A DNA stretch of 34,314 nt from assembly GCA_934436245.1 (NCBI GenBank), contig CAKSAM010000028.1, positions 1 to 34,314 of the forward strand, given 5' to 3'. Below the pieces are notes generated by a model that made no database searches, was not told the DNA's origin, and was given only the letters and a program-made list of their open reading frames with translations. The position numbers and the translations under genes were made by a program. This document shows positions 1,731 to 34,314 of this stretch, piece by piece. The DNA is from an uncultured Acetatifactor sp. GTDB lineage: Bacteria > Bacillota > Clostridia > Lachnospirales > Lachnospiraceae. The first letter of the stretch is position 1. Each line of letters opens with the position of its first letter.

Positions 1731-1748
1731 ATCCCATAGAGAATACAT

Positions 1749-1788
1749 AAAAAGCGTGGACATTCAGAAAGCTGTCCACGCTTTTTGC
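1749..1788 (+). terminator. Intrinsic terminator after thrH
   Basis: A perfect 14-base stem (1749-1762 with 1773-1786) encloses a 10-base loop. The stem ends in a run of five T on the descending side and five A on the ascending side, so it may work in both directions. Confidence 0.92.
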
Positions 1789-1821
1789 CTATAAGAATCT
1801 GTATTTGCCGTAGATAGAAAG

Positions 1822-1850
1822 TGGACAAGGGTATTTAAAATAGATATAAT
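1822..1850 (+). promoter_or_regulatory. Sigma-A promoter for the RsmH-like gene
   Basis: TGGACA (1822-1827) and TATAAT (1845-1850) are spaced by 17 bases, immediately after the thrH terminator. It would drive the methyltransferase and probably the small gene at 3056. Confidence 0.75.
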
Positions 1851-1905
1851 AAAATCAAAATGAACGGACAGATCCGATAGATCCGGATTGGAAAACGAGG
1901 TAATC

Positions 1906-2961: not shown

Positions 2962-3055
2962 CACAGAGATACAGGAGCGGAAATACTACGAATCCATAGG
3001 TGTATTCCGTATCCGGATATGAGGATAGCAGGATAGAAGAGAGGAGGCGCGGAAG

Positions 3056-3430
3056 ATGACAGTTATGGAGTATATTAATGCCCACAGAGAGGACATGGAA
3101 CCCTGTGAGTGTGTGATTTTGCCGGATGGCAGTGTACAGGAACCGCAGCCTTCCCATATAAAAAAACTGGAACAAATCTCCGGCGAAGACAAATTGACAC
3201 TGAACAGCCGGATGGAAAAGAGTATGGAACCTATTTTCTTTATGGTGGAATACACCGGCTGCATGCTGGTATGGAGTACTCGTGTGGTGGTACCCTCTCA
3301 TCCGACGCAGGCGCAGGAAGATACACTGGAAACTTTGTATTTTGCGGCAATGCTGGCTCCCGGGTACCATAGGGAACAGGCAGGAACCACTTACGAGGAA
3401 TGTGTGAAAAAGGCAAAAGAAATGAAGTAA
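3056..3430 (+). CDS. Conserved small protein of unknown function
   Basis: I do not recognise this protein of 124 residues. It has no signal peptide or membrane segment and looks like a soluble, slightly acidic alpha/beta protein. The N-terminal third includes CECVILPDGSVQEPQPSH, and the middle contains an FFMVEYTGCMLVWSTRVVVP segment likely to form beta strands. A GGAGG ribosome site eight bases before ATG 3056 supports translation. It follows the RsmH-like gene by 94 bases with no terminator between, so it is probably co-transcribed with it. dnaE downstream has its own promoter. Confidence 0.7.
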   Translation: MTVMEYINAHREDMEPCECVILPDGSVQEPQPSHIKKLEQISGEDKLTLNSRMEKSMEPIFFMVEYTGCMLVWSTRVVVPSHPTQAQEDTLETLYFAAMLAPGYHREQAGTTYEECVKKAKEMK

Positions 3431-3447
3431 ACCATCTGCCGGTTCTA

Positions 3448-3476
3448 TTTACAAAACTTCAGAATTTTGCTATGAT
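3448..3476 (+). promoter_or_regulatory. Extended -10 promoter for dnaE
   Basis: TTTACA (3448-3453) and TATGAT (3471-3476) lie 17 bases apart, and TGC immediately precedes the -10, giving an extended -10 element. The leader to the dnaE start would be about 40 bases. Confidence 0.75.
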
Positions 3477-3521
3477 AAAGTACGTTACAGAACATATATT
3501 CGATGGAAGGAAGCAACATAA

Positions 3522-6500
3522 ATGGCATTTACACATCTTCATGTGCATACAGAATATTCATTGCTTGATGGTTCTAATAAGATCAAGGAATACGTAGCCA
3601 GGGTAAAGGAACTGGGTATGAACAGTGCGGCAATCACTGATCATGGAGTCATGTACGGAGTCATCGATTTTTATCGTGCTGCAAGAGAAGCCGGTATCAG
3701 GCCGATCCTGGGATGTGAAGTCTATGTTGCTCCGAATTCCCGGTTTGACAAGGAAGCGGCCGGTGGAGAGGAGCGCTATCATCATCTGGTGCTGCTGGCG
3801 GAAAATAATACCGGCTATGCGAATCTGATCAAGATCGTGAGCCGTGGTTTTACGGAAGGATATTATTATAAACCCCGTGTGGACATGGAAGTGCTGCAGA
3901 AATACCATGAGGGAATCATTGCGTTGTCTGCCTGCCTGGCGGGAGAAGTGCCGTCCTTCATCCTGAAGGGTATGAAGGAAGAGGCGAGAAAAGCTGCGAA
4001 AAAGTATGAAGCCTGCTTCGGTAAAGGTAATTATTTCCTGGAATTACAGGATCACGGCATTCCGGAGCAGCGTACGGTGAATATGGAACTACTCCAGATG
4101 AGCAGGGAACTGGACATTCCCTTAGTGACCACCAATGATGTGCATTACACTTATGCGGAAGATGCCATCCCCCACGATATTCTGCTGTGCCTGCAGACCG
4201 GGAAAAAACTGGCGGATGAAGATCGTATGCGTTATGAGGGCGGCCAGTATTATGTGAAAAGCGAAGAAGAAATGAAGGGATTGTTCCCCTATGCCTGGGA
4301 AGCGGTGGAGAACACCCAGAGAATCGCAGACCGTTGTAATGTGGAGATCGAGTTTGGTGTGACAAAGCTGCCGAAATACGATGTACCGGAAGGGTATGAT
4401 TCCTGGAGCTATCTGAACAGACTCTGTGATGACGGACTGGCAGAGCGCTATGGTGACGGTAATCAGCCGGCAGGGGAGACTGGTCAGACCCTGCGGGAAC
4501 GGCTGGACTATGAGCTGGGCGTTATCCGCAGAATGGGATATGTGGATTATTTCCTGATTGTATGGGATTTCATTAATTATGCCAAGGAAAACGGTATTCC
4601 TGTGGGACCGGGACGAGGTTCCGCCGCAGGAAGTATTGTGGCATATTGTCTGAAGATCACTAATATCGATCCCATTCATTATAATCTGCTGTTTGAACGT
4701 TTTCTGAATCCGGAACGTGTATCCATGCCCGATATTGATGTGGATTTCTGCTTCGAGAGACGACAGGAGGTTATTGATTATGTAGGCAGAAAATATGGTT
4801 CCGACAAGGTGGTGCAGATCGTTACCTTTGGAACCCTGGCGGCCAAGGGAGTCATCCGCGATGTGGGACGTGTTATGGATCTGCCCTATGCTTTTGTGGA
4901 TTCTATTGCCAAAATGGTTCCCAATGAGCTTAATATCACATTGAGTAAGGCTCTGGAGATGAATCCGGAATTCCGTAAGCTCTATCAGGAGGACGAGCAG
5001 GTACATCATCTGATCGATATGTGCAAACGACTGGAGGGTCTGCCCAGACATACCTCCATGCATGCAGCCGGCGTCGTGATCTGCCAGAAGGCAGCAGACG
5101 AATTTGTCCCTTTATCCAGGGGCTCCGATGGCTCTATCGTCACCCAGTTTACCATGACCACGCTGGAAGAACTGGGATTGTTGAAAATGGACTTTCTGGG
5201 ATTGCGAACCCTGACCGTGATCCATGATGCGGTAAAATTCATCGAGAATACCACCGGCAGACACATTGACGTGGATAACATTGACTACAATGATCCCAAA
5301 GTGCTGGCATCCATCGGTACCGGTAGGACGGAGGGGATATTCCAGCTGGAAAGTGCCGGAATGAAAAACTTTATGAAAGAGCTTCGCCCGCAGAATCTAG
5401 AGGATGTGGTGGCAGGTATTTCACTGTATCGTCCGGGTCCTATGGACTTTATTCCGAAGTATATTCAGGGTAAAAATCACCCGGATGCAGTAACTTATGC
5501 CTGTCCGCAGCTGGAGCCGATCTTGAAGCCTACTTACGGCTGTATCGTGTACCAGGAGCAGGTAATGCAGATCGTTCGTGATCTGGCAGGATATACACTG
5601 GGACGAAGCGATCTGGTGCGCCGTGCCATGAGTAAAAAGAAGCAGTCTGTCATGGAAAAAGAGCGTACCAACTTTATCTATGGTAATCCGGAGGAAAACG
5701 TTCCCGGATGTATTGCGGGCGGTATTGATGAGCAGACTGCAGGTCAGATCTATGATATGATGATGGATTTTGCGAAATATGCCTTTAATAAGTCCCATGC
5801 GGCATGCTACGCAGTGGTTGCTTATCAGACGGCCTATTTAAAATATTATTATCCGGTAGAATTTATGGCGGCACTTATGACTTCTGTCATTGATAATCCG
5901 AAGAAGGTATCGGAGTATATTTTAAACTGTCGCAATATGGATATTGCCATTCTTCCTCCGGATGTGAATGCAGGTGAAGCCGGATTTTCCGTGGCAGACG
6001 GAAAGATAAGATACGCACTGACTGCCATTAAAGGCGTTGGACGGCCGGTTATCGACAGTCTGGTACAGGAACGGAAAGAGAGAGGACCTTTTACAAATCT
6101 GAAAGATTTTATTTCCAGAATGTCCGATAAAAAGGAAATGAATAAGCGGGCCATCGAGAATCTGATCAAGGCAGGAGCACTGGACGGGCTGGGAGGCACC
6201 AGAAAACAGTTTATGAGTATATATGTACAGATTGCGGATCATATTGCCCATGACAAGAAAAATAATCTGGCAGGTCAGATTTCACTGTTTGATATTGCAG
6301 GAGAAGAGGACAAAGAAGAATTTGACATCCGCATGCCGGATGTGGGAGAGTACAGCAAAGAGATGATGCTGGGGTTTGAAAAAGAGGTACTGGGAGTCTA
6401 TGTCAGCGGTCATCCGCTGGAGGAGTATCAGGAATTGTGGCAGAACTGCATCAGTAATACCGCCGGTGATTTTGCACTGGATGAGGAGACAGGTACAGTA

Positions 6501-7247
6501 CTCACGGTTCAGGATCAGGCCTATGCAGTCATTGGAGGGTTGATCGCTGATAAGACCGTGAAGTATACAAAGAATGATAAAATCATGGCATTTTTAAATC
6601 TGGAGGATCTGATCGGTAATGTGGAGGTTGTTGTATTTCCGCAAGTATATGAGCGTTACAACACTCTGCTTACAGAGGATGCCAAGGTATTTATCCGGGG
6701 AAGAGTATCGCTGGAGGAAGACAAGGATGGCAAACTGATCTGCGATCAGATCCTGAGCTTTGAGGACGCACAGACCGCAGTAGAGGCTAAACAGCCCCTG
6801 TTCCCCCGAAATTACGGCAGCAGCCGCAACGGATCTTATGGAAACGGCAGTGTCGGTGGATATCGGAATACCGGAAAAGGGCAGTATCAGAGCAGGGCAT
6901 CGTCCGGGGGGGCATCCGGTGGACAGACAGGGCAGATGCAGACAGAACAGCGGCCACAGACGAACGCAGCACCACAGAAGGGAATGCCTGCAGGCGTCTG
7001 GATACAGTTTCAAAATGTGGATGCCTATAAGGAGAGAGAACAGGAGTTACTCCGGGTTCTGTCGGATTCCGATGGAAATGATAATGTGATAATCTTCCTG
7101 AGGGATACGAAAAATTACAAAATTCTGCCTGCAAATCTTCGTGTAAAAGCGGATGAAACGCTGTGGGAAAAATTGTATACACAGTTTGGAAAAGAAAATG
7201 TTAAATTTATAACGAAACCTATTGAAAACCGCACAAAAATAGATTAA
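3522..7247 (+). CDS. dnaE: DNA polymerase III subunit alpha (DnaE)
   Basis: This C-family replicative polymerase has 1241 residues. In Firmicutes DnaE usually works beside PolC, extending primers on the lagging strand. The N-terminal PHP domain (residues 1 to about 280) begins with HLHVHTEYSLLDG and keeps the metal-ligand pattern (HxH, DHG, GCEVYV, NDVHY), so it may be an active proofreading exonuclease. The palm has VGPGRGSAAGS (about 360-370), the catalytic pair Asp404 and Asp406 in PDIDVDF, and the third catalytic Asp557 in KMDFLGL. Helix-hairpin-helix and OB-fold regions (VIGGLIADK onward, about 1005-1080) follow. An unusual Gly/Ser/Gln-rich linker covers about 1090-1145 and leads into a small C-terminal domain, making the protein longer than a typical clostridial DnaE. 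GGAAGGAAG precedes the ATG. pfkA follows. Confidence 0.97.
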   Translation: MAFTHLHVHTEYSLLDGSNKIKEYVARVKELGMNSAAITDHGVMYGVIDFYRAAREAGIRPILGCEVYVAPNSRFDKEAAGGEERYHHLVLLAENNTGYANLIKIVSRGFTEGYYYKPRVDMEVLQKYHEGIIALSACLAGEVPSFILKGMKEEARKAAKKYEACFGKGNYFLELQDHGIPEQRTVNMELLQMSRELDIPLVTTNDVHYTYAEDAIPHDILLCLQTGKKLADEDRMRYEGGQYYVKSEEEMKGLFPYAWEAVENTQRIADRCNVEIEFGVTKLPKYDVPEGYDSWSYLNRLCDDGLAERYGDGNQPAGETGQTLRERLDYELGVIRRMGYVDYFLIVWDFINYAKENGIPVGPGRGSAAGSIVAYCLKITNIDPIHYNLLFERFLNPERVSMPDIDVDFCFERRQEVIDYVGRKYGSDKVVQIVTFGTLAAKGVIRDVGRVMDLPYAFVDSIAKMVPNELNITLSKALEMNPEFRKLYQEDEQVHHLIDMCKRLEGLPRHTSMHAAGVVICQKAADEFVPLSRGSDGSIVTQFTMTTLEELGLLKMDFLGLRTLTVIHDAVKFIENTTGRHIDVDNIDYNDPKVLASIGTGRTEGIFQLESAGMKNFMKELRPQNLEDVVAGISLYRPGPMDFIPKYIQGKNHPDAVTYACPQLEPILKPTYGCIVYQEQVMQIVRDLAGYTLGRSDLVRRAMSKKKQSVMEKERTNFIYGNPEENVPGCIAGGIDEQTAGQIYDMMMDFAKYAFNKSHAACYAVVAYQTAYLKYYYPVEFMAALMTSVIDNPKKVSEYILNCRNMDIAILPPDVNAGEAGFSVADGKIRYALTAIKGVGRPVIDSLVQERKERGPFTNLKDFISRMSDKKEMNKRAIENLIKAGALDGLGGTRKQFMSIYVQIADHIAHDKKNNLAGQISLFDIAGEEDKEEFDIRMPDVGEYSKEMMLGFEKEVLGVYVSGHPLEEYQELWQNCISNTAGDFALDEETGTVLTVQDQAYAVIGGLIADKTVKYTKNDKIMAFLNLEDLIGNVEVVVFPQVYERYNTLLTEDAKVFIRGRVSLEEDKDGKLICDQILSFEDAQTAVEAKQPLFPRNYGSSRNGSYGNGSVGGYRNTGKGQYQSRASSGGASGGQTGQMQTEQRPQTNAAPQKGMPAGVWIQFQNVDAYKEREQELLRVLSDSDGNDNVIIFLRDTKNYKILPANLRVKADETLWEKLYTQFGKENVKFITKPIENRTKID

Positions 7248-8398: not shown

Positions 8399-8422
8399 GA
8401 CTATAATAAACTCATCCATAAA

Positions 8423-8459
8423 AAGGTATCTCCGACTGCTTGCAGGTGGGGGATACCTT
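8423..8459. other. Second hairpin in the pfkA downstream gap
   Basis: AAGGTATCTCC (8423-8433) pairs with GGGGATACCTT (8449-8459), again with one bulged base. On the plus strand no U run follows, but on the minus strand the stem runs into a T stretch. It could be a reverse terminator or a leader structure for the methyltransferase gene. The rest of 8278-8589 shows only a possible -10 (TATAAT at 8402-8407) with a poor -35. Confidence 0.4.
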
Positions 8460-8589
8460 CTATGAGAGGAGTAAACAGACATGAGTATGAAGGACGGTAG
8501 TCCGGAATACGAATGGATGTTGCGATTTTGAGAGTGCACAGCACGAAAAAATCACGTTATTATGGCTGGATAGCAGGGAGCAAACCGAT

Positions 8590-15923: not shown

Positions 15924-17165
15924 ATGAGAGCAAAAAAATGGATCAGTCTTATGATGGCAGGAGCCATGGCAATGTCCCTGGCAGGATGTGGATCACAGGA
16001 AGCACCAACATCCGCAGAGACCACAGGAACCGTACAGGCAAGTAGTGAGCAGTCTCAGGCAGCCACGGAGGCAGCTGAGGCGACAACAGATGATATGACA
16101 CTGGATGAGCTGATTGCGGCCGCACAGGCAGAGGCCAGCGCATCTGATGCAGGAACCTTTATGGTATATGCACCTACCAGCCGTATTGAGAAAGCCTTGA
16201 ATGCTTTTGCCGAAGAATATGGCATTCAGGGGGAATATTACAACGAGAGTGGTCAGGATCTGTACACCAAGCTTACAACCGAGCTGGAAGCCGGCGTGAA
16301 GGATACCGCAGACGTAGCTCTGTTACAGGATTCCTACCTGTTCCAGACACAGTTACAAAACTATGATTATATTACCAATTATGTTCCGCCTTATCTGAAA
16401 GACGACATCTATGCAGACGATCAGGAACCGTTGGTATGCTATTACTACAACAAGCTGTTCATCTTCAACAACACGGATGGAATGACCGGTATCACCAATG
16501 TATGGGAACTGGCCGATCCTGCCAATGCCGGCAAGACTTTCATGAAAGATATCAGTAAGGAATCCGTCAACAAGAATTTCCTGGCAATGCTCACCGAGCA
16601 GAAATGGGCAGATAAGCTGGCAACCGCTTACAAGGATTACTACGGCAAGGACATTGAACTGGATGAGGATTGCCCAAATGCCGGTTATCAGTATATCAAG
16701 AATCTGTTGGCTAATGTAACCTTCGGATCTGGCGACGGTGATATTGCAACCGAGCTGGCAAACGGCAAGGGCGGTAATGTCGGATTGTTTGTATATTCCA
16801 AACTTCGTGATGACAGCGTAACACAGGAAAACCTGACCGTAGCCGCATATCAGGATACACAGCCAGAAGGTTTCTCCGGATTTATGTATCCCATGTATTT
16901 ACAGATGATCAGCAGCACCGATCGTCCTTATACAGCAAAACTGTTCATCTATTTCCTGATGACGGAAAAGGGCTTTACTTCCGCATTCCAGACCAAGGCA
17001 GCAGATATCGGAACCTATTCCGCTAACAGCACCATCGCTTCTCTGGAAGGCGACAAGGATCTGTCTTTCTGGAAGGACTGCCTGGTATGTGAAGAGCCTC
17101 AGTATCTGCAGGAGGCATATGCATCAGGTATCCTTGACTTTATCACTTATTGCACCAACAAATAA
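15924..17165 (+). CDS. ABC transporter substrate-binding lipoprotein (FbpA/AfuA-like)
   Basis: This 413-residue binding protein is anchored to the membrane by a lipid. The signal peptide ends in the lipobox LAGC with Cys22. A Thr/Ala/Glu-rich spacer (about 23-65) leads into a class II periplasmic-binding fold, beginning TFMVYAPTSRIEKALNAF. The fold and the matching fused permease place it in the family of ferric iron, sugar-phosphate (AfuA) and phosphonate binding proteins; the substrate cannot be fixed from sequence. Many Tyr and Asp residues in the likely binding face (for example YYYNKLFIFNN) do not distinguish iron from organic ligands. GGGAGG lies upstream of the ATG. A leaky terminator separates it from the permease, so it is probably made in excess over the membrane parts. 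Confidence 0.88.
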   Translation: MRAKKWISLMMAGAMAMSLAGCGSQEAPTSAETTGTVQASSEQSQAATEAAEATTDDMTLDELIAAAQAEASASDAGTFMVYAPTSRIEKALNAFAEEYGIQGEYYNESGQDLYTKLTTELEAGVKDTADVALLQDSYLFQTQLQNYDYITNYVPPYLKDDIYADDQEPLVCYYYNKLFIFNNTDGMTGITNVWELADPANAGKTFMKDISKESVNKNFLAMLTEQKWADKLATAYKDYYGKDIELDEDCPNAGYQYIKNLLANVTFGSGDGDIATELANGKGGNVGLFVYSKLRDDSVTQENLTVAAYQDTQPEGFSGFMYPMYLQMISSTDRPYTAKLFIYFLMTEKGFTSAFQTKAADIGTYSANSTIASLEGDKDLSFWKDCLVCEEPQYLQEAYASGILDFITYCTNK

Positions 17166-23172: not shown

Positions 23173-23535
23173 ATGGATGAGAATAAGATCGTACTCTGCG
23201 GCGCCAATGCCTATGAGAAAAAATATTATTTTAACGAAGAACAATTCAAAATGATCCCGGAATCTATCAAGGAGGAGCTTCATGTAATCTGTGTGCTTTT
23301 CACTGAGGAAGTGGGTGGTATCTTTACCATAGCTTTCGAAGAAGACGGGAATGTGGTCATGGAAACCAATGCGGATGATGACGATATCTATTATGATGAG
23401 ATTTCTTCCGGTCTGTTGATTTCCGAGATCCGCAGGAACAGACAGGAACTGTTTGAATCCCTAAGCCTGTATTACCGTGTGTTTATCAAAAAGGAAGATG
23501 TATCCGCATTGTTGGACGAGGAGGATGAGGAATGA
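23173..23535 (+). CDS. Small acidic protein (DUF6145-like)
   Basis: This protein of 120 residues starts [20 protein letters not shown]. It is strongly acidic, with runs such as NADDDD and a C-terminal DEEDEE, and has no membrane segment. I recall this family as DUF6145, found in Lachnospiraceae; I could not search to confirm it. Function is unknown. The start at 23173 is chosen for its match to that N-terminus; its ribosome site (AGGA) is weak, and an in-frame ATG at 23092 has none. The stop overlaps the coaX start (ATGA), suggesting coupled translation. Confidence 0.75.
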
Positions 23536-24302
23536 TTTTTGTCGTTGATGTAGGCAATACGAATATGACGATGGGTGTCTTTCAGGGAAAGAAACTTGCA
23601 GCCACCTTCCGGATCATGACCAAGACTCCCAGAACCTCCGATGAATACGGAATCATGATTACACAGTTGTTGAAAAATAACGGTATTGCGGCAGCGGATA
23701 TAGAAGGTGCCATAATTGCCAGTGTAGTGCCGGATGTAATGCACTCTCTGACCAGTGCAATTATCAGATATTTGAAAACAAAACCGCTGATCGTGGGACC
23801 CGGTGTGAAGAGTGGGATTAAAGTCGCAACAGAGGATCCAAGAGGAATCGGTGCGGATCGTATTGTGGATGCTGTGGCGGCATACGTCAAATATGGCGGG
23901 CCGGTGCTGGTGCTGGATTTCGGTACTGCTACCACCTACGACCTGATTACGGAGGACGGACGATTTACGGCGGGAATCACTGCGCCCGGTATCCGGATCA
24001 GTTCCGAGGCACTGTGGAGAGAGACCGCAAAATTACCGAATATTGAGATTCGTAAGCCCAAGTCGATCCTGGCACAGGAGACCATTACCAGTATGCAGGC
24101 CGGATTGATGTATGGTCAGATCGGCCAGACGGAATACATCATCCGCAAGGTAAAGGAAGAGAGCGGACTTACCAACCTGAAAGTGGTAGCTACCGGAGGT
24201 CTGGGCAGAGTCATTGCGGACGAGACTGACAGTATTGATATTTACGACAGTTCTCTGACATTGGACGGACTGCGGATCATCTATGATAAAAACAGGCACT
24301 GA
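23532..24302 (+). CDS. coaX: Type III pantothenate kinase
   Basis: This 256-residue enzyme phosphorylates pantothenate in the first step of coenzyme A synthesis. It is the CoaX form: the phosphate loop [12 protein letters not shown] (from Asp6), the GADRIVDA block and the DFGTATTYD block are all in place. CoaX is not inhibited by CoA, unlike CoaA. GAGGAGGATGAGG lies before the ATG, within the end of the upstream gene. In related genomes birA, coaX and dusB are neighbours, as I recall; here four membrane genes lie between coaX and dusB. Confidence 0.96.
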
Positions 24303-24317
24303 TGAGGGGCACACAAT

Positions 24318-25877
24318 ATGATAAAGCTGGAAAAAGCGGCAACTAAGATCATGGCAGTCATCGGAACAGCAGTAATGCTGTTCCTGGTATTTTATTCCTG
24401 GAGATATACGAAAAGGTTCGTGGAGCTGGAGTATTATCTGGATGAAAAAGACAGTATCTTTTATAACCTTATTTTTAGTATGGTTGTTCTATTTCTGTGC
24501 AGTATGTTCTCAGGAATAGTTCAGAGGATTCCTGAAAAAGTCTTGCATCTGTTGGCAATTCTCGGAGCTGTGGCAGTGACCGGGTTTGGCATTTACTTTG
24601 CCCGTGCTGCCAGAGCTGTAGTAATATCAGATCAATATTATGTGGAACGTGCTGCAGAGGCTATGGCTACCGGTGATCTGGAATGGATAATTGCACAGGA
24701 ATATTACAGATTGTATCCTTTTCAACTGGGGATTGCGCAAATCTATACATTTTTATTCCGGCTTGCAGATTCTACGGACTTGATAGTACTACAGCAGATA
24801 CAGGCAGTCTGTGCTGGGATTACTTTGTATGCCGGTTTTAGAATCGTGAGGGAATTGTCAGGAAAGAGAATGGCAGAACTTCTGTATCTCATGGCAGAGA
24901 TTGTATTTTTGCCAATATATTGTTATGTGTTGTTTGTATATGGAGAGAGCCTGGGAATCTGTAGTGTAGTATGTGCAACATGGTGTTATCTTGTTGCCGG
25001 CAGATCAGGTGGTAACAAATGGAAAAAAATTGTACTCTGGTGTGTTATTGGATTGTTAATGACTCTTGCTTACGTGGTAAGGAGTGCGCTGCTAGTGGTA
25101 TGGATTGCTATGTTTATCATGCAGATTTTGCTAGTATTGAGAGAAAGACGCTGGAAGGGAATCTTTGCACTTGGTGGTGTACTGGCAGTGATGCTTGTAG
25201 GGCAAAACATTTTATGCAATATGGCAGAACAACAGATTGGACGTGATTACGGTTCCGGTGCACCGTATATTATGTGGGTTGCCATGGGAATGCAGGATAA
25301 TCCGGAACCGCAAAAGGGACCGGGAACCTGGAACGGTTATAATACTGATATTTATGAACAGGTTGGATATGACAGCCGGGAAGCTGCAAGCATAGCAAAG
25401 CAAAATCTTCGGGAACGATTTTCTGAATGGAGTAGAAATCCCAAAGAAGCCATAACATTTTTCAAGGAGAAATTACTGATTCAGTGGATCGAACCCACAT
25501 GCGGTGGGTTTGTTCTGACCAGATATCTGGATGAGCCGGAGGAATGGGTGCAGGAACTCTATTTCGGACAGAACAATGAGAAGGCATTATCTTTCCTGAA
25601 CCGGTATCAGGCAATCCTGTATCTGGCGATTCTGGGATATTATCTGGAAATCCTTTTCGGAAGAGTAAATGGGGTTAAAATCCTTCCGGGGATCATTTTT
25701 TTGGGAGGATTTTTTATCACTGTTCTCTGGGAGGCCAAGAGCCGTTATGTGTATCCCTATATCGTCATGATACTGCCCTGTGCGGCATGCAGTTTGGAAT
25801 ATTACAGTATTCTGATGCAAAACGGGCTGAAGAAAATAAGACAGGGAATTGTGGAACATATCAAAAGAGAAAAGTAG
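24318..25877 (+). CDS. Putative GT-C membrane glycosyltransferase, paralog 1 of 4
   Basis: This integral membrane protein of 519 residues has about 11-13 hydrophobic segments. Asp105-Gln106 sit in the first large external loop, followed by EYYRLYPFQLG. Further blocks are YAGFRIVREL, FVYGESLGICS, GSGAPYIMWVAMGMQ with GTWNGYN, FFKEKLLIQW and, from Trp471, WEAKSRYVYPY. The early external acidic residue and this loop and helix order are typical of GT-C enzymes (PMT/ArnT type), which move a sugar from a polyprenyl-phosphate carrier to an acceptor outside the membrane. No specific family can be assigned by eye. GAGGGG precedes the ATG, 15 bases after coaX. Donor and acceptor are unknown; a non-enzymatic membrane role is possible. 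Confidence 0.65.
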   Translation: MIKLEKAATKIMAVIGTAVMLFLVFYSWRYTKRFVELEYYLDEKDSIFYNLIFSMVVLFLCSMFSGIVQRIPEKVLHLLAILGAVAVTGFGIYFARAARAVVISDQYYVERAAEAMATGDLEWIIAQEYYRLYPFQLGIAQIYTFLFRLADSTDLIVLQQIQAVCAGITLYAGFRIVRELSGKRMAELLYLMAEIVFLPIYCYVLFVYGESLGICSVVCATWCYLVAGRSGGNKWKKIVLWCVIGLLMTLAYVVRSALLVVWIAMFIMQILLVLRERRWKGIFALGGVLAVMLVGQNILCNMAEQQIGRDYGSGAPYIMWVAMGMQDNPEPQKGPGTWNGYNTDIYEQVGYDSREAASIAKQNLRERFSEWSRNPKEAITFFKEKLLIQWIEPTCGGFVLTRYLDEPEEWVQELYFGQNNEKALSFLNRYQAILYLAILGYYLEILFGRVNGVKILPGIIFLGGFFITVLWEAKSRYVYPYIVMILPCAACSLEYYSILMQNGLKKIRQGIVEHIKREK

Positions 25878-25886
25878 AGTGAATCA

Positions 25887-27455
25887 ATGGACAAGTTGGA
25901 AAAAGCAGCAGTAAAGATCATGGCAGTTATCGGGACAGCAGTGATGTTGTTTCTGGTATTTTATTCCTGGAGATATACCAAGAATCTGGTTAGACCGGAA
26001 TACTACCTTGATGAGAAGGACAGTGTCTTATTTAACTTCCTTCTTTGCGCTGTTCTATTGCTGTTGAGCGGTATCCTGACGAAAGCAGTACAAAAAATTC
26101 CTGCGAGAGTGACGCATTTGCTGGCAATGATAGCTGCGGTGGCAGCGGCAGCGTTTGGAATTTGGCTGGCGAGAGCTGCCGGAGCGGTAAGCGATGCAGA
26201 CCAGTACTGTGTACAGAGAGCAGCAAAAGCTCTGGTGGACGGGGATATGGAATGGGTGTTGCAGCAGGATTACTTTGGAATTTACCGTTTCCAGTTGGGA
26301 CTGGCAGAGATCTTTTCTTTTTTCTTCCGGGTGATGGGGAATACGGAAGCAATCGCGGTTCAACAGATACAGGCAATCTTCGGTGGAATTACTTTGTATG
26401 TGGGATTTCGGATTGTCCGGGAACTTTCGGGGCAACGTCTGGCGGAATTGCTTTATCTACTGGCAGAAATAACTTTTTTGCCAATGTATTGCTATATGCT
26501 GTTTGTGTATGGAGAGAGTCTTGGAGTCTGCAGTGCGGTATGCGCCATCTGGTGCTACCTTATTGTCAGCAGACCGGGCGGAAAAACATGGACGAAATGC
26601 ATGTACTGGGCGGCAATCGGTTTCCTGATGACTTTGGCTTATGTGGCAAAAAGTGTGCTGCTTGTGGTATGGATTGCCATGTTTATCATGCAGATTCTGT
26701 TGGCGCTGAAAAACAAAAGCTGGAAAGGAATTATTGCGCTCTGTGGGGTACTGGCAGTGATGCTTGCCGGGGAAGAATTATTATGCAGTATGGCGGAACG
26801 GCAGATCGGGCAGGAGTACGGTTCGGGTGCTCCATATATTTTGTGGGTCGCCATGGGAACGCAGGAAAACGATGATCCCCAACGGGGACCGGGCACCTGG
26901 AATGGTTATAATGCAGATACTTATGTGCAGGCAGGATATGACGGTCGGGAGGCTGCAAGAATAGCGAAGGATGATCTTAAAAAACAGTATGCGGAATGGA
27001 GTGCAAATCCCGGACAGGCTATAACGTTTTACAAGGAAAAAATACTGATCCAGTGGATCGAACCTACCTATGGCGGATTTGTTATGACAGGTTCTCTGAA
27101 TGGTCCAAAGCATTGGGTGAATGAACTCTATTTTGGACAGGCCAATGAAAGAGCACTATCCTTCCTGAACCGGTATCAGGCAGTTCTGTATCTGGCAATT
27201 CTGGGATATTATTTAAGAATTCTTTCCGGAAAAGTAGATGGTGTCAAGATTCTTCCCGGAATTATTTTTCTGGGCGGATTTTTCATTACAATCTTCTGGG
27301 AGGCCAAGAGTCGTTATGTGTATCCCTATATCGTCATGATACTGCCCTGTGCGGCATGCAGTATAGAATATTATGGTGCGCTGGCGCAAAGTGGCCTGAA
27401 GAAGCTAAGACAGAGATTGATGGATTCCACCAATAGAAAAGAACAGGGGAAATAA
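25887..27455 (+). CDS. Putative GT-C membrane glycosyltransferase, paralog 2 of 4
   Basis: This 522-residue membrane protein is the closest relative of paralog 1, with the same layout along the whole length. It keeps Asp105-Gln106, YRFQLGLAEI, FVYGESLGVCS, GSGAPYILWVAMGTQ, GTWNGYN, FYKEKILIQWIEPTYGGF and WEAKSRYVYPY from Trp471. The first 30 residues (VIGTAVMLFLVFYSWRYTK) match paralogs 1 and 3 almost exactly, also at the DNA level. It starts nine bases after the stop codon of paralog 1 with a poor ribosome site, so it relies on coupling. Differences from paralog 1 are concentrated in residues 30-100 and in the loop after Asp105, regions that could set donor or acceptor choice (inference). 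Confidence 0.65.
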   Translation: MDKLEKAAVKIMAVIGTAVMLFLVFYSWRYTKNLVRPEYYLDEKDSVLFNFLLCAVLLLLSGILTKAVQKIPARVTHLLAMIAAVAAAAFGIWLARAAGAVSDADQYCVQRAAKALVDGDMEWVLQQDYFGIYRFQLGLAEIFSFFFRVMGNTEAIAVQQIQAIFGGITLYVGFRIVRELSGQRLAELLYLLAEITFLPMYCYMLFVYGESLGVCSAVCAIWCYLIVSRPGGKTWTKCMYWAAIGFLMTLAYVAKSVLLVVWIAMFIMQILLALKNKSWKGIIALCGVLAVMLAGEELLCSMAERQIGQEYGSGAPYILWVAMGTQENDDPQRGPGTWNGYNADTYVQAGYDGREAARIAKDDLKKQYAEWSANPGQAITFYKEKILIQWIEPTYGGFVMTGSLNGPKHWVNELYFGQANERALSFLNRYQAVLYLAILGYYLRILSGKVDGVKILPGIIFLGGFFITIFWEAKSRYVYPYIVMILPCAACSIEYYGALAQSGLKKLRQRLMDSTNRKEQGK

Positions 27456-29000
27456 ATGGACAAGTTGGAAAAAACGGCAACAAAGATCATGGCAGTTATC
27501 GGAACAGCGGTCATGCTGTTTCTGGTATTTTATTCCTGGAGATATACGAAAATATTATTTTCAAATGAAGTTTTTCAGAATGAAAAGGATAGTATCCTTT
27601 GGAATCTACTTCTCTTTGTGGGCATATTTGTTCTGACAGGCGTTCTGGCAACATTCCTGAGCAGGGTGCCCAAAGGGGTAATGCATGTGGCGGCGATAGT
27701 CTGCTCAGTGGTGGCAGTGATTTTCAGCCTCTGGCTGATCAGGGATGCAAGAGCTTATTGCGTGGGAGACCAATACCATTCTTTTCTGGCGGCACAGGCG
27801 CTTTTTAACGGTGACACGGAGTGGATGAGGGACTATCATTATTTTCAGATGTTTCCTTTTCAGTTAGGACTTTCGGCAATTTACTCCCTTTTTTTTCGTA
27901 TTGCCGGGCAGGCAGACTGGGTGATCCTTCAGAACATGCAGGCTATATGCGCAGGTGCAATTCTGTATGCCGGATATCGCATTGTAAGACAATTGTTTCA
28001 GAACAGAGCAGCGGAAGCAATCTATCTGATTCTGGAGTTACTGTTTGTACCGTTGTATTGCTACACCTTGTTTATTTATGGAGAAACTATCGGTACCTGT
28101 AGCGCTGTGCTCGCCATCTGGTTTTATCTGGAGGCCAACCGGACGGATAGAAAAAAGGGGAGCAGACTATTGTTCTGGGTGTTGACAGCACTTATGCTCT
28201 CTGTGATGTATTTGGCTCGCAGCGGACTTCTTGTGATATGGATCGCTATGGTGATCATGCAACTTCTGGTATTCTGTCAAAACAGGAACCTAAAATGGTT
28301 TTTAACGGGAGTGGTTGCACTGGCAAGTGTATTTTTATTGTCTCAATTTGTATATTCCACTATAGAAAAACAGATTGGAACAAAATTTGATTCCGGTGCT
28401 CCTTACATTTTATGGATCGCTATGGGAATGCAGGAAGATGTTCCGGAGAGAGGTCCCGGTGCCTACAATGGTTATAATGAGGTGATCTATGGGGAAGTGG
28501 AAGGTGACACGAAAGCCGCCTCAGACATTGCAAAAGAATATTTATCTGAAAGATGGGGAGACTGGTTGCACCATCCCGGACAAATGATCAGCTTTTTTAA
28601 GGATAAGAGCCTGTTTGAATGGAATGACCCCACTTACGGCTGCTTTATGATGACCTGTTACATGGATGAACCGGAACAATGGGTGAATGACTGTTATAAC
28701 GGTTCCGGATATGAACGGATCAGAGGATTTCTGAACCGCTACCAGGCAATGATTTATCTGGCGGTTCTGGGATATTTTGTGATGATATTCACTGGAAAAT
28801 TACGGGGAGTACAAATTCTTCCGGGGATCATTTTGCTGGGTGGTTTTTTCTTCACCATGATCTGGGAGGCCAAGAGCAGGTATGTGTACCCCTATATCGT
28901 CATGATATTGCCCTGTGCGGCGTACAGCGTGGTATATTATGTGGGATGGTTTCAAACGTTGTTGATGAAGCAGGTGGCTAAAAGGAGAGCGTATGAATAA
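27456..29000 (+). CDS. Putative GT-C membrane glycosyltransferase, paralog 3 of 4
   Basis: This 514-residue protein shares the N-terminal segment of paralogs 1 and 2 but is more diverged after it. It retains Asp105-Gln106, FPFQLGLSAIY, YAGYRIVRQL, FIYGETIGTCS, SGAPYILWIAMGMQ, GAYNGYN, FFKDKSLFEWNDPTYGCF and WEAKSRYVYPY from Trp470. The start codon follows the stop of paralog 2 with no gap; AGGGGA lies five bases upstream, inside the previous gene. The changes WNDPT for WIEPT and GAYNGYN for GTWNGYN are shared in part with paralog 4. Function as for paralog 1. Confidence 0.65.
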   Translation: MDKLEKTATKIMAVIGTAVMLFLVFYSWRYTKILFSNEVFQNEKDSILWNLLLFVGIFVLTGVLATFLSRVPKGVMHVAAIVCSVVAVIFSLWLIRDARAYCVGDQYHSFLAAQALFNGDTEWMRDYHYFQMFPFQLGLSAIYSLFFRIAGQADWVILQNMQAICAGAILYAGYRIVRQLFQNRAAEAIYLILELLFVPLYCYTLFIYGETIGTCSAVLAIWFYLEANRTDRKKGSRLLFWVLTALMLSVMYLARSGLLVIWIAMVIMQLLVFCQNRNLKWFLTGVVALASVFLLSQFVYSTIEKQIGTKFDSGAPYILWIAMGMQEDVPERGPGAYNGYNEVIYGEVEGDTKAASDIAKEYLSERWGDWLHHPGQMISFFKDKSLFEWNDPTYGCFMMTCYMDEPEQWVNDCYNGSGYERIRGFLNRYQAMIYLAVLGYFVMIFTGKLRGVQILPGIILLGGFFFTMIWEAKSRYVYPYIVMILPCAAYSVVYYVGWFQTLLMKQVAKRRAYE

Positions 29001-30540
29001 AATACTGGTTTTTTGCGAAAAAGTAATAGCAGTGGTCGGATGCTTGATTTTTGCAGTATTGAGTTATTATTCTTTTCGCTACACTCTTTTAAAGCAATAT
29101 AATAGTACTATGCTTGAAAATCGTGACAATTTGCCGGTGCATTTTTTGGCAGTGGCGGTAATGCTTGTTATTTCCTGCGTTTTATATCGTATAAGCCATA
29201 AAATATCCGCAAAAGCTGTACATGTGATGGCGGTGCTGCTTTCCGGATTGGTATTTTTTGTTTGTATTGCTATCTATATGAGTGCAGAATTTCTGCCTAT
29301 TGTGGATCAGGGACATGTTTATATGAATGCCGTAGCTATTGCGGATAAAGAAGTCGGTCATATTATAGAGCCGGAATACTATATTTTATACAGCTTTCAG
29401 ATTGGTTTGACGGAGCTGATGGCATTGGCCATGAAACTTACCGGTAATACGACAGTAGGAATGCTTGAAATCATACAATCCCTGTTTTCCGGAATGGCTA
29501 CATATGCCGGATTTCGAATTACCAGAGAACTTTTTCACAGGACTAATATAGAGGTAATCTATTTGTTGTTGACAATTCTGTTTTTACCACAATATCTGTA
29601 TGCCATGTTTATATATGGGGAAAGTCTGGGAATTTGTGCCACTATGTATGCGTGCTTATTTTTCCTGCTGGCAAACAGGAAAAAAATGTCGATCTTAAGG
29701 TCAGTATGGTATTACGCAGCAATGATATTATGTATGGATGCTGCATACCTTGCCAGGGGTGCTATGATGATAGCATGCATTGCAATGTTGATACTGCAGA
29801 TTATGTTCTGTCTGAAACAGAAAAAATATTATCGTTTGCTCCCAGTACTTATGCTTTTCCCGGTTCTTATTATGACGGGAAAAGGAATGACAGCCTTAGC
29901 AGAGAGACAATCGCAGTTTGATTACGGTGACGGATGCCCCAAGATCATGTGGGTAGCCATGGGATTACAGGAAAATGAAGGCGATCCGCAATGCCCTGGT
30001 ACTTATAACGGTTTCAATGCGGATACTTACAGTGCCTGTGATTATGATGCAAAAACAACGGCAGAGATCGGTAAAGATGAAATCAGGAAGATTTTGGGAG
30101 AATGGGGTCGAAATCCAGGAAAAATGTTGAACTTTTTTAAACGCAAGATGGTTTATCAATGGAATGATCCTTCCTATGACGCTTTTTTTTCCACTTATTA
30201 TATGGAAAATCAGAAAGAGTGGTTGGATAGAGTATATTTTGATGATGCCGTACATTCCAGGGTGGTTCAATTTATGAATAACTACCAGTTTCTGGTATAC
30301 CTTATGCTGTTGATGTATTTTCTGAAAAACTTGTCAGGAAAAAATGAGATTGAGGCACTGCTTCCGGTTCTGATACTCATTGGTGGATTTTTATTCAGTC
30401 TGATCTGGGAAGGAAGAAGCCGTTATGTATATCCATATATTGTGATCGCACTGCCATGCGCAGCGGCGGGAATTCATTATACGGAGCAGTGGATAGAAAG
30501 AATACTGTATAATTGCGGAAAAAAACGGAGACGTCAGTAA
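28993..30540 (+). CDS. Putative GT-C membrane glycosyltransferase, paralog 4 of 4
   Basis: This 515-residue protein is the most divergent of the four. It has its own N-terminus (VVGCLIFAVLSYYSFRYTL) but the same hydrophobic profile. It still has Asp105-Gln106, YSFQIGLTEL, YAGFRITREL, FIYGESLGICA, PKIMWVAMGLQ, GTYNGFN, FFKRKMVYQWNDPSYDAF and, from Trp472, WEGRSRYVYPY, where Glu-Gly-Arg replaces Glu-Ala-Lys. It overlaps paralog 3 by eight bases and has AAGGAG six bases before the ATG. Its codons look more AT-rich than those of dusB downstream. It ends 33 bases before dusB with no terminator between. Confidence 0.62.
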   Translation: MNKILVFCEKVIAVVGCLIFAVLSYYSFRYTLLKQYNSTMLENRDNLPVHFLAVAVMLVISCVLYRISHKISAKAVHVMAVLLSGLVFFVCIAIYMSAEFLPIVDQGHVYMNAVAIADKEVGHIIEPEYYILYSFQIGLTELMALAMKLTGNTTVGMLEIIQSLFSGMATYAGFRITRELFHRTNIEVIYLLLTILFLPQYLYAMFIYGESLGICATMYACLFFLLANRKKMSILRSVWYYAAMILCMDAAYLARGAMMIACIAMLILQIMFCLKQKKYYRLLPVLMLFPVLIMTGKGMTALAERQSQFDYGDGCPKIMWVAMGLQENEGDPQCPGTYNGFNADTYSACDYDAKTTAEIGKDEIRKILGEWGRNPGKMLNFFKRKMVYQWNDPSYDAFFSTYYMENQKEWLDRVYFDDAVHSRVVQFMNNYQFLVYLMLLMYFLKNLSGKNEIEALLPVLILIGGFLFSLIWEGRSRYVYPYIVIALPCAAAGIHYTEQWIERILYNCGKKRRRQ

Positions 30541-30573: not shown

Positions 30574-31548
30574 ATGAATAAATTACAGATTGGCAACGTG
30601 ACTCTGGACAATCCCGTTATCCTGGCACCCATGGCAGGCGTATCCGACCTGCCATTTCGTCTGCTCTGCAGAGAAATGGGAGCAGCTCTGGTGTGCATGG
30701 AGATGGTCAGCGCCAAGGCCATATATTATCACAATAAAAATACGGATAGTCTCATGGAGATTCATCCGGATGAAGTGCCTGCATCACTGCAGTTGTTCGG
30801 CTCGGATCCGCAGATTCTTTCAGAGATGGCGAAACGTATTGAGGAACGGCCTTTTTCCATTCTGGATCTGAACATGGGATGCCCGGTGCCAAAGGTCGTG
30901 AACAACGGAGAGGGCTCTGCGCTGATGAAGGATCCGAAGCTGGTGGAGCAGATTCTGACGGCGCTGGTAAAGGCTATCCACAAGCCGGTGACGGTGAAGA
31001 TCCGCAAGGGATTTGACGATGATCATGTGAATGCCGTGGAGATCGCAAAGATCGCAGAAGCCTGCGGTGTGGCAGCCGTGGCGGTACACGGACGGACCAG
31101 AGCACAGTACTACAGCGGACAGGCAGACTGGGATATTATTGCACAGGTGAAAAATGCAGTTAAGATCCCTGTCATCGGCAACGGCGATGTGGATACTCCC
31201 CAGAAGGCCAGGGCCATTCTGGAACAGACCGGCTGCGATGGTGTCATGATCGGCCGGGCGGCAGAGGGGAACCCCTGGATTTTCCGGGAGGTGGTATCGT
31301 ACCTTACGAACGGAACAATCCCGGCGCGCCCCACCAACCGGGAGAAACGGGAACTGATCCTGCGCCATGCGGCACTGCAGCTGGAATACAAGGGGGAATA
31401 CACCGGTGTCCGGGAGATGCGCAAGCACCTGTCCTGGTATACGGTAGGAATGCCTCATTCCGCACATTTCCGCCAGACCATCAACACCATGGAAAAAATG
31501 GACGAGCTCATACAGGGGGTACAGGAGATTTTTCCTGATGAAGAGTAG
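30574..31548 (+). CDS. dusB: tRNA-dihydrouridine synthase B
   Basis: This 324-residue flavoenzyme reduces specific uridines in tRNA D-loops. The FMN-binding TIM barrel starts PVILAPMAGVSDLPFR. The catalytic Cys103 is in DLNMGCPVPK; VKIRKGF, VHGRTRAQYYSG, GNGDV and GVMIGRAAEGNPW follow. A C-terminal helical RNA-binding domain covers about 245-324. GAGGA is four bases before the ATG. It is 33 bases after the membrane-gene array, with no obvious promoter, so it may depend on transcription through the array or from upstream. Confidence 0.95.
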   Translation: MNKLQIGNVTLDNPVILAPMAGVSDLPFRLLCREMGAALVCMEMVSAKAIYYHNKNTDSLMEIHPDEVPASLQLFGSDPQILSEMAKRIEERPFSILDLNMGCPVPKVVNNGEGSALMKDPKLVEQILTALVKAIHKPVTVKIRKGFDDDHVNAVEIAKIAEACGVAAVAVHGRTRAQYYSGQADWDIIAQVKNAVKIPVIGNGDVDTPQKARAILEQTGCDGVMIGRAAEGNPWIFREVVSYLTNGTIPARPTNREKRELILRHAALQLEYKGEYTGVREMRKHLSWYTVGMPHSAHFRQTINTMEKMDELIQGVQEIFPDEE

Positions 31549-31632: not shown

Positions 31633-32577
31633 ATGGACACAATTTTATATCTCTATCCTGTACGAAAGACAACGGATTCTGTCCGGGAGCAGAGACAGAT
31701 CCGGAAGGAGAATTGTAAAGGTGGATGGTGGGGAAAACTTCGCACACACTTCCCCGGTCTGTGGATAACTACCGGGGATGACGGAGCGGAACAACCAGAA
31801 CTGCAGGTGATCCGGACAGAGTATTTTTTCCCGGAATATCGACTGGTAAAAGCTGCTGTCGCCGGATATGCCGGACATGGAGACCGCCGGGATGGAACCG
31901 TTGCAGTGAAATCCGGAAAAGAGTGGGGAAAAGACAGGAAATGGATGGAACGAAGAATTGAAGCACAATTGCGAGAACTGACAGAGGATCCGGATCACAC
32001 CTATGTTGTGTGCCGTGAGCCTCTTTCTTTTTATTTTGGAAGAGAATTCCGGGAATATCTGCAGCAGAATTGGGTGGAACATCTGCTACGGTATGGGGAG
32101 AAGGCGGATGGATGTCCCAAGTATCCTGATCTGGTGATTCTGGGACGAAATGCCTTTTTGACATATGTGGTGCTGCGATATGCGGAGAAGCTGCGCAGGG
32201 TGGGCTGGTATCTTACGGAGAGACAGTATCGAGAGGAAGAGGACTGGCTCGTGGAGGAACTGGAGGAAGAATACGGTCTGATTCCCGGACTTCATCTGCT
32301 GGCAACGGATTCGGATTATAGACGGATACGGCTGCAGGATACGGAACCTTGTGTAGTACTGGATTTTTGCGATAACGAAAAAATCTACGGAGCAGATCTG
32401 GGAAAGGGTAGTATCTGGCTGGATTTTACGGCCTCGGAGGAAAAGGAGAGAAGGTTTGCAATACAATGTCCCGGAATTCTCTATTTTTCGTTGAAAAAAG
32501 AATGGAAAGAACCCCGAAAAGCCTTGGAATACCTTGACACCATCAGTAAAAATGGGTATAATAACTCGGTTGATTAG
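31633..32577 (+). CDS. Unknown protein between dusB and greA
   Basis: I do not recognise this protein of 314 residues. It has no signal peptide or membrane segments and is rich in charged residues. An Arg/Lys- and Trp-rich N-terminal region (to about 110) is followed by a likely alpha/beta region with PLSFYFGREFREYLQQNW, YPDLVILGR, YAEKLRRVGWYLTER, GLHLLATDSDYRRIRL and CVVLDFCDNEKIYGADLGKG. The Asp-rich strand ends and the segment DLVILG hint at a nucleotide- or nucleic acid-related fold, but this is weak. The start has only GGAG one base away, so it may be further in. A -10-like TATAAT lies at 31570. Its last codons contain the greA promoter. Confidence 0.7.
   Translation: MDTILYLYPVRKTTDSVREQRQIRKENCKGGWWGKLRTHFPGLWITTGDDGAEQPELQVIRTEYFFPEYRLVKAAVAGYAGHGDRRDGTVAVKSGKEWGKDRKWMERRIEAQLRELTEDPDHTYVVCREPLSFYFGREFREYLQQNWVEHLLRYGEKADGCPKYPDLVILGRNAFLTYVVLRYAEKLRRVGWYLTERQYREEEDWLVEELEEEYGLIPGLHLLATDSDYRRIRLQDTEPCVVLDFCDNEKIYGADLGKGSIWLDFTASEEKERRFAIQCPGILYFSLKKEWKEPRKALEYLDTISKNGYNNSVD
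32534..32562 (+). promoter_or_regulatory. Full-consensus sigma-A promoter for greA-lysS
   Basis: TTGACA (32534-32539) and TATAAT (32557-32562) are separated by exactly 17 bases, a perfect match to consensus. The whole element sits inside the last codons of the upstream gene. Transcription would begin near 32569, giving a leader of about 70 bases before greA. Confidence 0.88.
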
Positions 32578-33154: not shown

Positions 33155-34314
33155 GTGGCAGATACACAGAACACAAAGGTACAGGAACAGGACATCCACC
33201 AGCTGCTTAAGGTAAAGCGCGAGAAGCTGGCGAACCTGCAGCAGGCAGGCAAGGATCCTTTTCAGATCACCAAATATGATGTGACCCATCACAGCACCGA
33301 TATCAAGAATAATTTCGAGGAACTGGAAGGCAAGACCGTCCGCATCGCCGGACGTGTGATGTCCAAACGTGTCATGGGTAAGGCATCCTTCTGTAATGTA
33401 CAGGATCTGCCCGGCAATATCCAGGTATATGTAGCAAGAGACAGCATCGGAGAAGAGTCCTATGCGGATTTCAAGAAGTACGATGTAGGTGATATCGTAG
33501 GTATCGAAGGTGAAGTCTTCAAGACCAAGACCGGTGAGATCTCCGTACATGCAGCAAAGGTTACATTGCTGTCCAAGAGCTTACAGATCCTGCCTGAGAA
33601 ATTCCACGGCCTGACCAATACCGATATCCGTTATCGTCAGCGTTATACCGACCTGATCATGAATCAGGACGTTAAGGATACTTTCGTAAAGCGTTCCAAA
33701 ATTATCAGCGCCATCCGCCGTTATCTGGACGGACAGGGTTTCCTGGAGGTAGAGACCCCTATGCTGGTATCCAATGCCGGCGGTGCGGCAGCAAGACCTT
33801 TCGAGACCCATTACAATGCGCTGGATGAGGACGTGAAGCTGCGTATCTCCCTGGAATTGTATCTGAAGAGACTGATCGTCGGTGGCATGGAGCGTGTCTT
33901 CGAAATCGGCCGAGTATTCCGTAACGAAGGTCTGGACACCAGACACAATCCGGAATTCACACTGATGGAGCTGTACCAGGCATACACCGACTACTACGGA
34001 ATGATGGATCTGACCGAGAACATGTTCCGCTATGTGGCACAGGAAGTATGCGGTACTACCGTAATCCCTTATGAAGAAGAGACCATTGACCTGGGCAAGC
34101 CTTTTGAGAGACTGACCATGGTAGATGCTGTCAAGAAATACGCAGGCGTTGACTTCGATCAGATTCCCGATACCGCTGCAGCGAAGAAGCTGGCAGACGA
34201 GAAGGGTGTACACTACGAAGAACGTCATGCCAAGGGCGATATCCTGAACCTGTTCTTCGAGGAGTTCGTAGAAGAGCATCTGATCCAGCCCGTATTCATC
34301 ATGGATCATCCGGT
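33155..34314 (+). CDS. lysS: Lysyl-tRNA synthetase, class II (5' part, runs off the window)
   Basis: The first 386 codons are present; the gene continues past the end of the window. It starts with GTG at 33155 (reads MADTQNTKVQEQD), nine bases after AGGAG. The N-terminal anticodon-binding OB domain (about 55-160; VRIAGRVMSKRVMGKASF) is followed by the class II catalytic core. Motif 1 is in GFLEVETPML, followed by GGAAARPFETHYNAL, and motif 2 is GRVFRNEGLDTRHNPEFT. Motif 3 is not yet reached. The enzyme charges tRNA-Lys. Confidence 0.97.
   Translation, partial: MADTQNTKVQEQDIHQLLKVKREKLANLQQAGKDPFQITKYDVTHHSTDIKNNFEELEGKTVRIAGRVMSKRVMGKASFCNVQDLPGNIQVYVARDSIGEESYADFKKYDVGDIVGIEGEVFKTKTGEISVHAAKVTLLSKSLQILPEKFHGLTNTDIRYRQRYTDLIMNQDVKDTFVKRSKIISAIRRYLDGQGFLEVETPMLVSNAGGAAARPFETHYNALDEDVKLRISLELYLKRLIVGGMERVFEIGRVFRNEGLDTRHNPEFTLMELYQAYTDYYGMMDLTENMFRYVAQEVCGTTVIPYEEETIDLGKPFERLTMVDAVKKYAGVDFDQIPDTAAAKKLADEKGVHYEERHAKGDILNLFFEEFVEEHLIQPVFIMDHP

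Follow-up and report, generated by a model that had tools for sequence, protein, structure and literature searches.

Why would a gut-type bacterium keep four related membrane proteins, encoded one after another, amid housekeeping genes? The question is raised by a 34,314-nucleotide stretch of DNA from an uncultured Acetatifactor sp. (contig CAKSAM010000028.1; the whole stretch is called the window), in which the paralogous genes G1 to G4 lie between coaX and a dihydrouridine synthase (dus) gene. A sequence-only reading had taken their products for GT-C glycosyltransferases with lipid-linked donors. We conclude, at a probability of roughly 0.7, that G1 to G4 encode outer-face GT-C transferases, each of which would move one polyprenyl-phosphate-linked sugar onto a cell-surface acceptor, and that they are old paralogues among which the roles are split.

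Fold and conserved residues

The GT-C fold and an external position of Asp105 had been named beforehand as the points on which the reading could fail. Structural comparison of predicted models demonstrated the GT-C membrane bundle in both G1 and G4; ArnT ranks first for G1, and for G4 it lies within 1 Z unit of Pmt4. The first outer loop of GT-C transferases of the ArnT, PMT and STT3 kind carries a conserved Asp. In the array, an Asp-Gln pair carries the identical numbering 105-106 in all four proteins and sits right after the helix at residues 73-98 (G1 model) or 73-96 (G4 model), within the core's first outer loop. Loop charges agree with an external Asp105 loop in all four proteins, the sides being taken from the G1 and G4 models. 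PMC8035078 describes a DxD or modified DxD motif in the first outer loop of GT-C enzymes; the array proteins have the first Asp only, in a DQx motif.

Conservation was followed in an alignment and profile of 82 family proteins (A2; a second family profile is called A1) and in 58 of 67 genomic copies, those sized 440-760 aa. D105, Y129, Y208, G336, K385, W390, G463, W471, E472 and Y477 are invariant in A2 (82/82). The first seven are kept in all 58 genomic copies, E472 and Y477 in 57 and W471 in 54. The other motifs ascribed to the four proteins were recovered in their translations: the (Y/F)xFQ(L/I)G block (YPFQLG, YRFQLG, FPFQLG and YSFQIG in G1 to G4), the GYN/GFN loop (NGYN in G1-G3, NGFN in G4), the FxKxK..W segment (FFKEK..W or variants) and WE..SRYVYPY, which begins at residues 471, 471, 470 and 472. 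The block written as (F/I)YGE is likewise present in all four, but its true form is F(V/I)YGE (FVYGE, FVYGE, FIYGE and FIYGE). The likeness of G1 to G4 is not due to chance, because BLASTP gives an E value of 3e-116 for this pair.

Among sequence families, the nearest named one is TIGR03766 (XrtG-associated glycosyltransferase), with a weak, near full-length match in G3 and G4; at E<=1e-3 it is matched by 31 of the 82 aligned A2 members, and PMT_2 (PF13231) by 22. The ArnT family is not among the NCBIfam matches of G1-G4 at E<=1. A sequence search of solved structures with G4 returned nothing, and the A2 profile found no GT-C chain there, only six weak, unrelated chains. Many relatives carry the precomputed label PF27792.

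In the proposed mechanism, a GT2 enzyme encoded elsewhere would make polyprenyl-phosphate-sugar inside the cell, and GtrA-type flipping would bring this donor outward. Each GT-C protein, with its ArnT/PMT-type core, would then move one sugar onto a cell-surface acceptor at the outer face of the cytoplasmic membrane, where Asp105 may serve as a base or activate the acceptor.

The leading rival holds that exported proteins are glycosylated, in a PMT- or Pgf-like manner, instead of a wall polymer. We regard this as unlikely. ArnT acts on a lipid glycan, and the fold leaves the choice undecided, with ArnT first for G1 and so near to Pmt4 for G4; no candidate protein substrate adjoins the array.

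Age and history of the copies

Among the records found, Lachnospiraceae bacterium GAM79 comes closest; its coaX, dus and greA products are 94.5%, 96.3% and 96.9% identical to those of the window. It has the same neighbours with a single copy (534 aa, 64% identity to G2) instead of four. Further family members in GAM79 are remote and lie elsewhere (three by profile A1, 22-29% identical; four by A2).

A tree of 58 rows, with a midpoint root and long branches, in which the pieces from locus L003 and two L002 copies are placed unsurely, separates the window copies into three groups with support of 100/99 or 100/100 each. G4 groups with P0001, P0002, P0003 and P0005; G3 with P0033, P0064, P0065, P0067, P0068, P0069 and P0070; and G1 and G2 fall in a third group that includes the GAM79 copy. 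The four window copies are not one clade: they need 4 changes on this tree, and they are joined in 0% of 200 bootstrap trees, which rules out a recent amplification of G1-G4. Since the groups are separate and highly supported and the copies do not form one clade, the array members predate the split of the compared sources. Other sources contain close relatives of both G3 and G4 (75-99% identity), and the two copies in each array of genomes G243 and G279 pair off as orthologs. Most simply, GAM79 would have lost G3 and G4; transfer may be an alternative source of the differences in copies.

The idea of a set with different specificities is thereby borne out indirectly only, in that the copies represent old lineages, each maintained in its own right. 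As such paralogues, they differ, in all likelihood, in donor, in linkage or in the position modified on the acceptor. Jointly they would add sugars to one envelope polymer or a few, either lipoteichoic-acid-type or another secondary wall polymer.

That the copies are instead redundant, retained for dosage or drifting is quite improbable. The single copy of GAM79 at the same location would suit it, as would the L002 array with its third copy shortened to 466 aa, but none of the four window genes is truncated or lacks an invariant residue, and G3 and G4 have their 75-99% identical relatives elsewhere in groups long separate. That the proteins are O-antigen-type ligases or polymerases, or inactive proteins of GT-C fold, and not single-sugar transferases is the least probable of all. 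What speaks for it is a weak Wzy_C match of G1, at 16.2 bits under a gathering score of 31.7; G2-G4 have none.

Donor supply and acceptor

Pfam analysis of 20 other window open reading frames (ORFs) agreed with the earlier statement that no synthase, flippase or polymerase is encoded nearby; three matchless ORFs were rescanned, and the analysis did not extend to several ORFs, the longest of 255 aa. Around family members elsewhere, a GT2-type cluster occurs in 13 of 47 loci (17 proteins, of which 16 have at least two C-terminal transmembrane (TM) helices; three tested members match PF00535). The GT2-type gene is the direct same-strand neighbour in four loci (L006, L007, L077 and L083; gaps of -41, 7, -4 and 12) and a divergent neighbour in four further loci. 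All four members with a same-strand GT2 gene have Gln at position 476 (QY), and the window copies have Arg (RY). Same-strand pairing is found in 0/48 Arg rows and 4/9 Gln rows, one gapped row being dropped (Fisher p 0.0003, uncorrected for kinship and for a comparison picked after viewing the data). The nine rows of L103-L109 stood outside the clustering, and no gene there is like the GT2-type cluster.

That the donor supply lies elsewhere, as had been supposed, is supported by analogy with GAM79. This genome has 28 PF00535 places, some within one gene, and four of its PF00535 proteins have at least two predicted C-terminal TM helices (L131, L137, L138 and L143). The GT2 proteins in L160 and L158, the larger loci of L137 and L131, match the ArnC model at E values of 2.5e-34 and 3.2e-46 and match PgfS too, with all ArnC and PgfS scores below the curated cut-offs. 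GtrA places over the cut-off number one in GAM79, two in G002, four in G243 and two in G279. The single GtrA of GAM79 resembles the case of Lactococcus, where one flippase supplies several GT-A/GT-C pairs (PMC8035078).

Possible acceptors are surface proteins and wall polymers, lipoteichoic-type or other. GAM79 has eight sulfatase-family places, seven with 4-5 predicted N-terminal TM helices and one (L146) with none. Of four scanned among the seven, one matches LtaS (65.6 bits, E 3.3e-18, against a cut-off of 970), another matches YejM weakly, and two have no match at E<=1e-5. LtaS matches below the cut-off also occur in one protein of G002 and one of G279. DltD was absent in 4/4 relatives searched. 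Separately, three sulfatase-family genes stand in tandem in locus L153 of GAM79 (1514-6612); their products have N-terminal TM helices, and two of these proteins begin almost identically.

Several points weigh against the favoured explanation. Among G1-G4, the PMT_2 gathering score of 26.1 bits is passed by G2 alone; G1 falls below it at 21.7 bits, and G3 and G4 have no match. For Asp105, the comparison with ArnT and PMT and their catalytic Asp is at the level of aligned ranges. The 20 scanned window ORFs include no GT2, GtrA, flippase or polymerase match, and the argument for donor supply draws on GAM79, not on the array's own genome. The GT2-paired relatives with Gln476 may be a distinct branch whose pairing does not transfer to the window copies. 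Finally, a lipoteichoic-type acceptor is a guess, because DltD was found in none of the four relatives and only one of the four scanned GAM79 proteins matched LtaS.

Gene organization

The arrangement read earlier, four head-to-tail genes of 514-522 residues between coaX and a dihydrouridine synthase gene, was confirmed by ORF coordinates and by Pfam matches of the flanks (Table 1). G1 and G2 are 9 bases apart, G2 and G3 are 0 bases apart, and G3 and G4 overlap by 8. Upstream lie genes for a biotin ligase and a DUF6145 protein in addition to coaX (Pfam). A single transcript of these three genes with G1-G4 is likely, because G1 begins 15 bases past coaX and dus 33 bases past G4; promoter-like matches (25 versus 23.3 expected, standard deviation (sd) 4.5) are neutral on this point. 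Elsewhere in the window, a Clostridiales-1 RNA (RF01699) lies at 8402-8564 on the forward strand (96 bits against a gathering score of 48), and three ORFs, 15924-17165, 31633-32577 and 33581-34309 (413, 314 and 242 aa), have no Pfam match at E<=0.01.

Table 1. Coordinates, in the window, of the array genes, their flanks and features within G1.
Feature	Position	Strand	Remarks
coaX (type III pantothenate kinase), upstream of G1	23532..24302	+	PF03309
G1, GT-C transferase paralogue, 519 aa	24318..25877	+	ORF
5' repeat of G1	24324..24620	+	common to G2 (25893-26189, 70%) and G3 (27462-27758, 63%)
Asp105-Gln106 of G1, proposed catalytic Asp, first outer loop of core	24630..24635	+	Asp105 in 82/82 (A2) and 58/58 genomic copies
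3' repeat of G1	25593..25804	+	common to G2 (27162-27373, 86%) and G3 (28728-28939, 78%)
G2, GT-C transferase paralogue, 522 aa	25887..27455	+	68% identity to G1; PMT_2 PF13231 26.8 bits
G3, GT-C transferase paralogue, 514 aa	27456..29000	+	49% identity to G1; TIGR03766 over 10-489, 23.6 bits
G4, GT-C transferase paralogue, 515 aa	28993..30540	+	35% identity to G1
dus gene (dihydrouridine synthase), downstream of G4	30574..31548	+	PF01207

Possible exchange at gene ends

The 5' repeat opens with codons for a segment in which any pair of G1, G2 and G3 is alike at 30/32 positions over residues 1-32; over the remainder the figure is 46-66%. P0065, of the G3 group, is identical to the GAM79 copy over residues 1-32 (32/32) and 48% identical elsewhere; its sister P0069 reaches only 20/32 over the same residues. 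P0054, a close G2 relative, has four differences from G2, two of them in the first nine residues and both G1-like, and P0067 diverges from G3 from residue 496 onward. These end-specific patterns suggest exchange at gene ends among family copies. Counting against it, synonymous sites in the window give no sign of recent conversion, and the P proteins are without genomic context, some on short contigs (2341 bases for P0054).

Part of the likeness at the 5' end is put down to selection acting on the first helix. A recent gene conversion of this end within the window is unsupported, as fourfold-site identity there shows no significant rise over the rest of the gene (G1-G3, 9/13 versus 33/70, p 0.23; G1-G2, 7/12 versus 63/114, p 1.0; G2-G3, 7/11 versus 31/76, p 0.20); protein-level selection or older exchange remain as sources. 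Codons 16-23 also contain a terminator-like hairpin and T-rich stretch in G1 (24363-24384), G2 (25932-25953) and G3 (27501-27522). The stem is pairable in these three and in the GAM79 copy, whose stem equals that of G1. A selected RNA hairpin is not claimed, because the lowest-energy folds contain it unevenly (in G1 and GAM79, partly in G3, not in G2) and the excess of terminator-like matches in the region is mild (16 versus 10.7 by chance, sd 2.9).

A more speculative and rather doubtful proposal treats the array as a cassette locus that diversifies glycans: within one housekeeping operon, old GT-C paralogues have near-identical 5' and similar 3' ends, and recombination between shared ends would alter the transferases kept per lineage (four here, one in GAM79). 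If so, surface decoration, and hence phage or host recognition, would shift with the genes present at a single, fixed place in the chromosome.

Distribution of the family

Genomes were searched in the groups labelled 'genus', 'family' and phylum of G001, for which no kinship is stated and in each of which G001 is counted. The family is common in one group, with profile A1 matching 40 of 61 'genus' genomes at E<=1e-10 (GAM79 included), and patchy beyond, with 18 of 150 'family' genomes by the same measure and 9 of 299 genomes of the phylum by A2 at E<=1e-20. At E<=1e-85, a match was found in 13 of 138 genomes, three of which have same-strand arrays (three copies in G002, two each in G243 and G279); four in a row is the largest array observed. 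In 8 of the 13 (G002, G003, G046, G243, G256, G279, G281 and G285) the gene is housed in a glnA-to-dapL run, with dapF in six, these three names being a reading of sequences and not a family assignment; in L103, a DUF6056 protein follows dapL. Only G001 has the coaX-dus location, and the member in L059 (G155) adjoins a dus gene. On viral contigs, none of 81 pattern-matching stretches codes for a family relative.

Unusual members were also observed. L003 has four family units, two of them fused in one 1028-residue protein, and the shortened third copy of the three-copy array in L002 (9579-10979) stops without the WE..RY end. A single long frame joins the family GT-C domain to a GDSL acylhydrolase domain at the C-terminus in L070 (6427-9486) and L072 (7613-10750), and to a C-terminal CotH kinase domain in L071 (6321-9674). 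In L061, L064, L067, L075, L085, L086, L091 and L093, members adjoin a conserved cluster, uridine-kinase-like in L061; a second cluster, whose L061 member is a sigma-70 factor, lies nearby as well in 7 of these 8 loci.

Comparison with known systems

ArnT belongs to GT83, and Pmt4 and Pmt1-Pmt2 to GT39. The aligned part of ArnT (5f15/5ezm) is 10% identical to the array proteins, which have two extra N-terminal helices, and the protein O-mannosyltransferases Pmt4 and Pmt1-Pmt2 are 8-10% identical. To TIGR03766, the nearest named family, the array proteins score 23.6-33.8 bits, under the curated cut-off of 500. To our knowledge, the envelope glycans of Lachnospiraceae are poorly charted. The location amid housekeeping genes is one that searches for glycan genes would miss, and old tandem paralogues with clade-specific positions are a natural set in which to map the residues governing acceptor or sugar choice.

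Both the GT-C enzyme class and multi-component glycosylation are well described, and outer GT-C enzymes are difficult to detect by sequence (PMC8035078). No such four-copy array was found in the open literature as represented by titles and the starts of abstracts. The CsbB/GtcA/YfhO, CsdA-F with CflA and GtsABC systems follow the scheme proposed here, a donor GT2, a flippase and an outer GT-C (PMC8035078). Multi-component systems, including SccN/M/P/Q of S. mutans, have several GT-C enzymes per cell or polymer, as here (PMC8035078 and PMC11754754). Unlike in those systems, no adjoining GT2 or flippase gene was found, and the four GT-C genes are consecutive amid housekeeping genes. The array is a known class of enzyme, the outer GT-C transferase, in an unusual setting: with no donor genes found adjoining, four old paralogues stand together among housekeeping genes.
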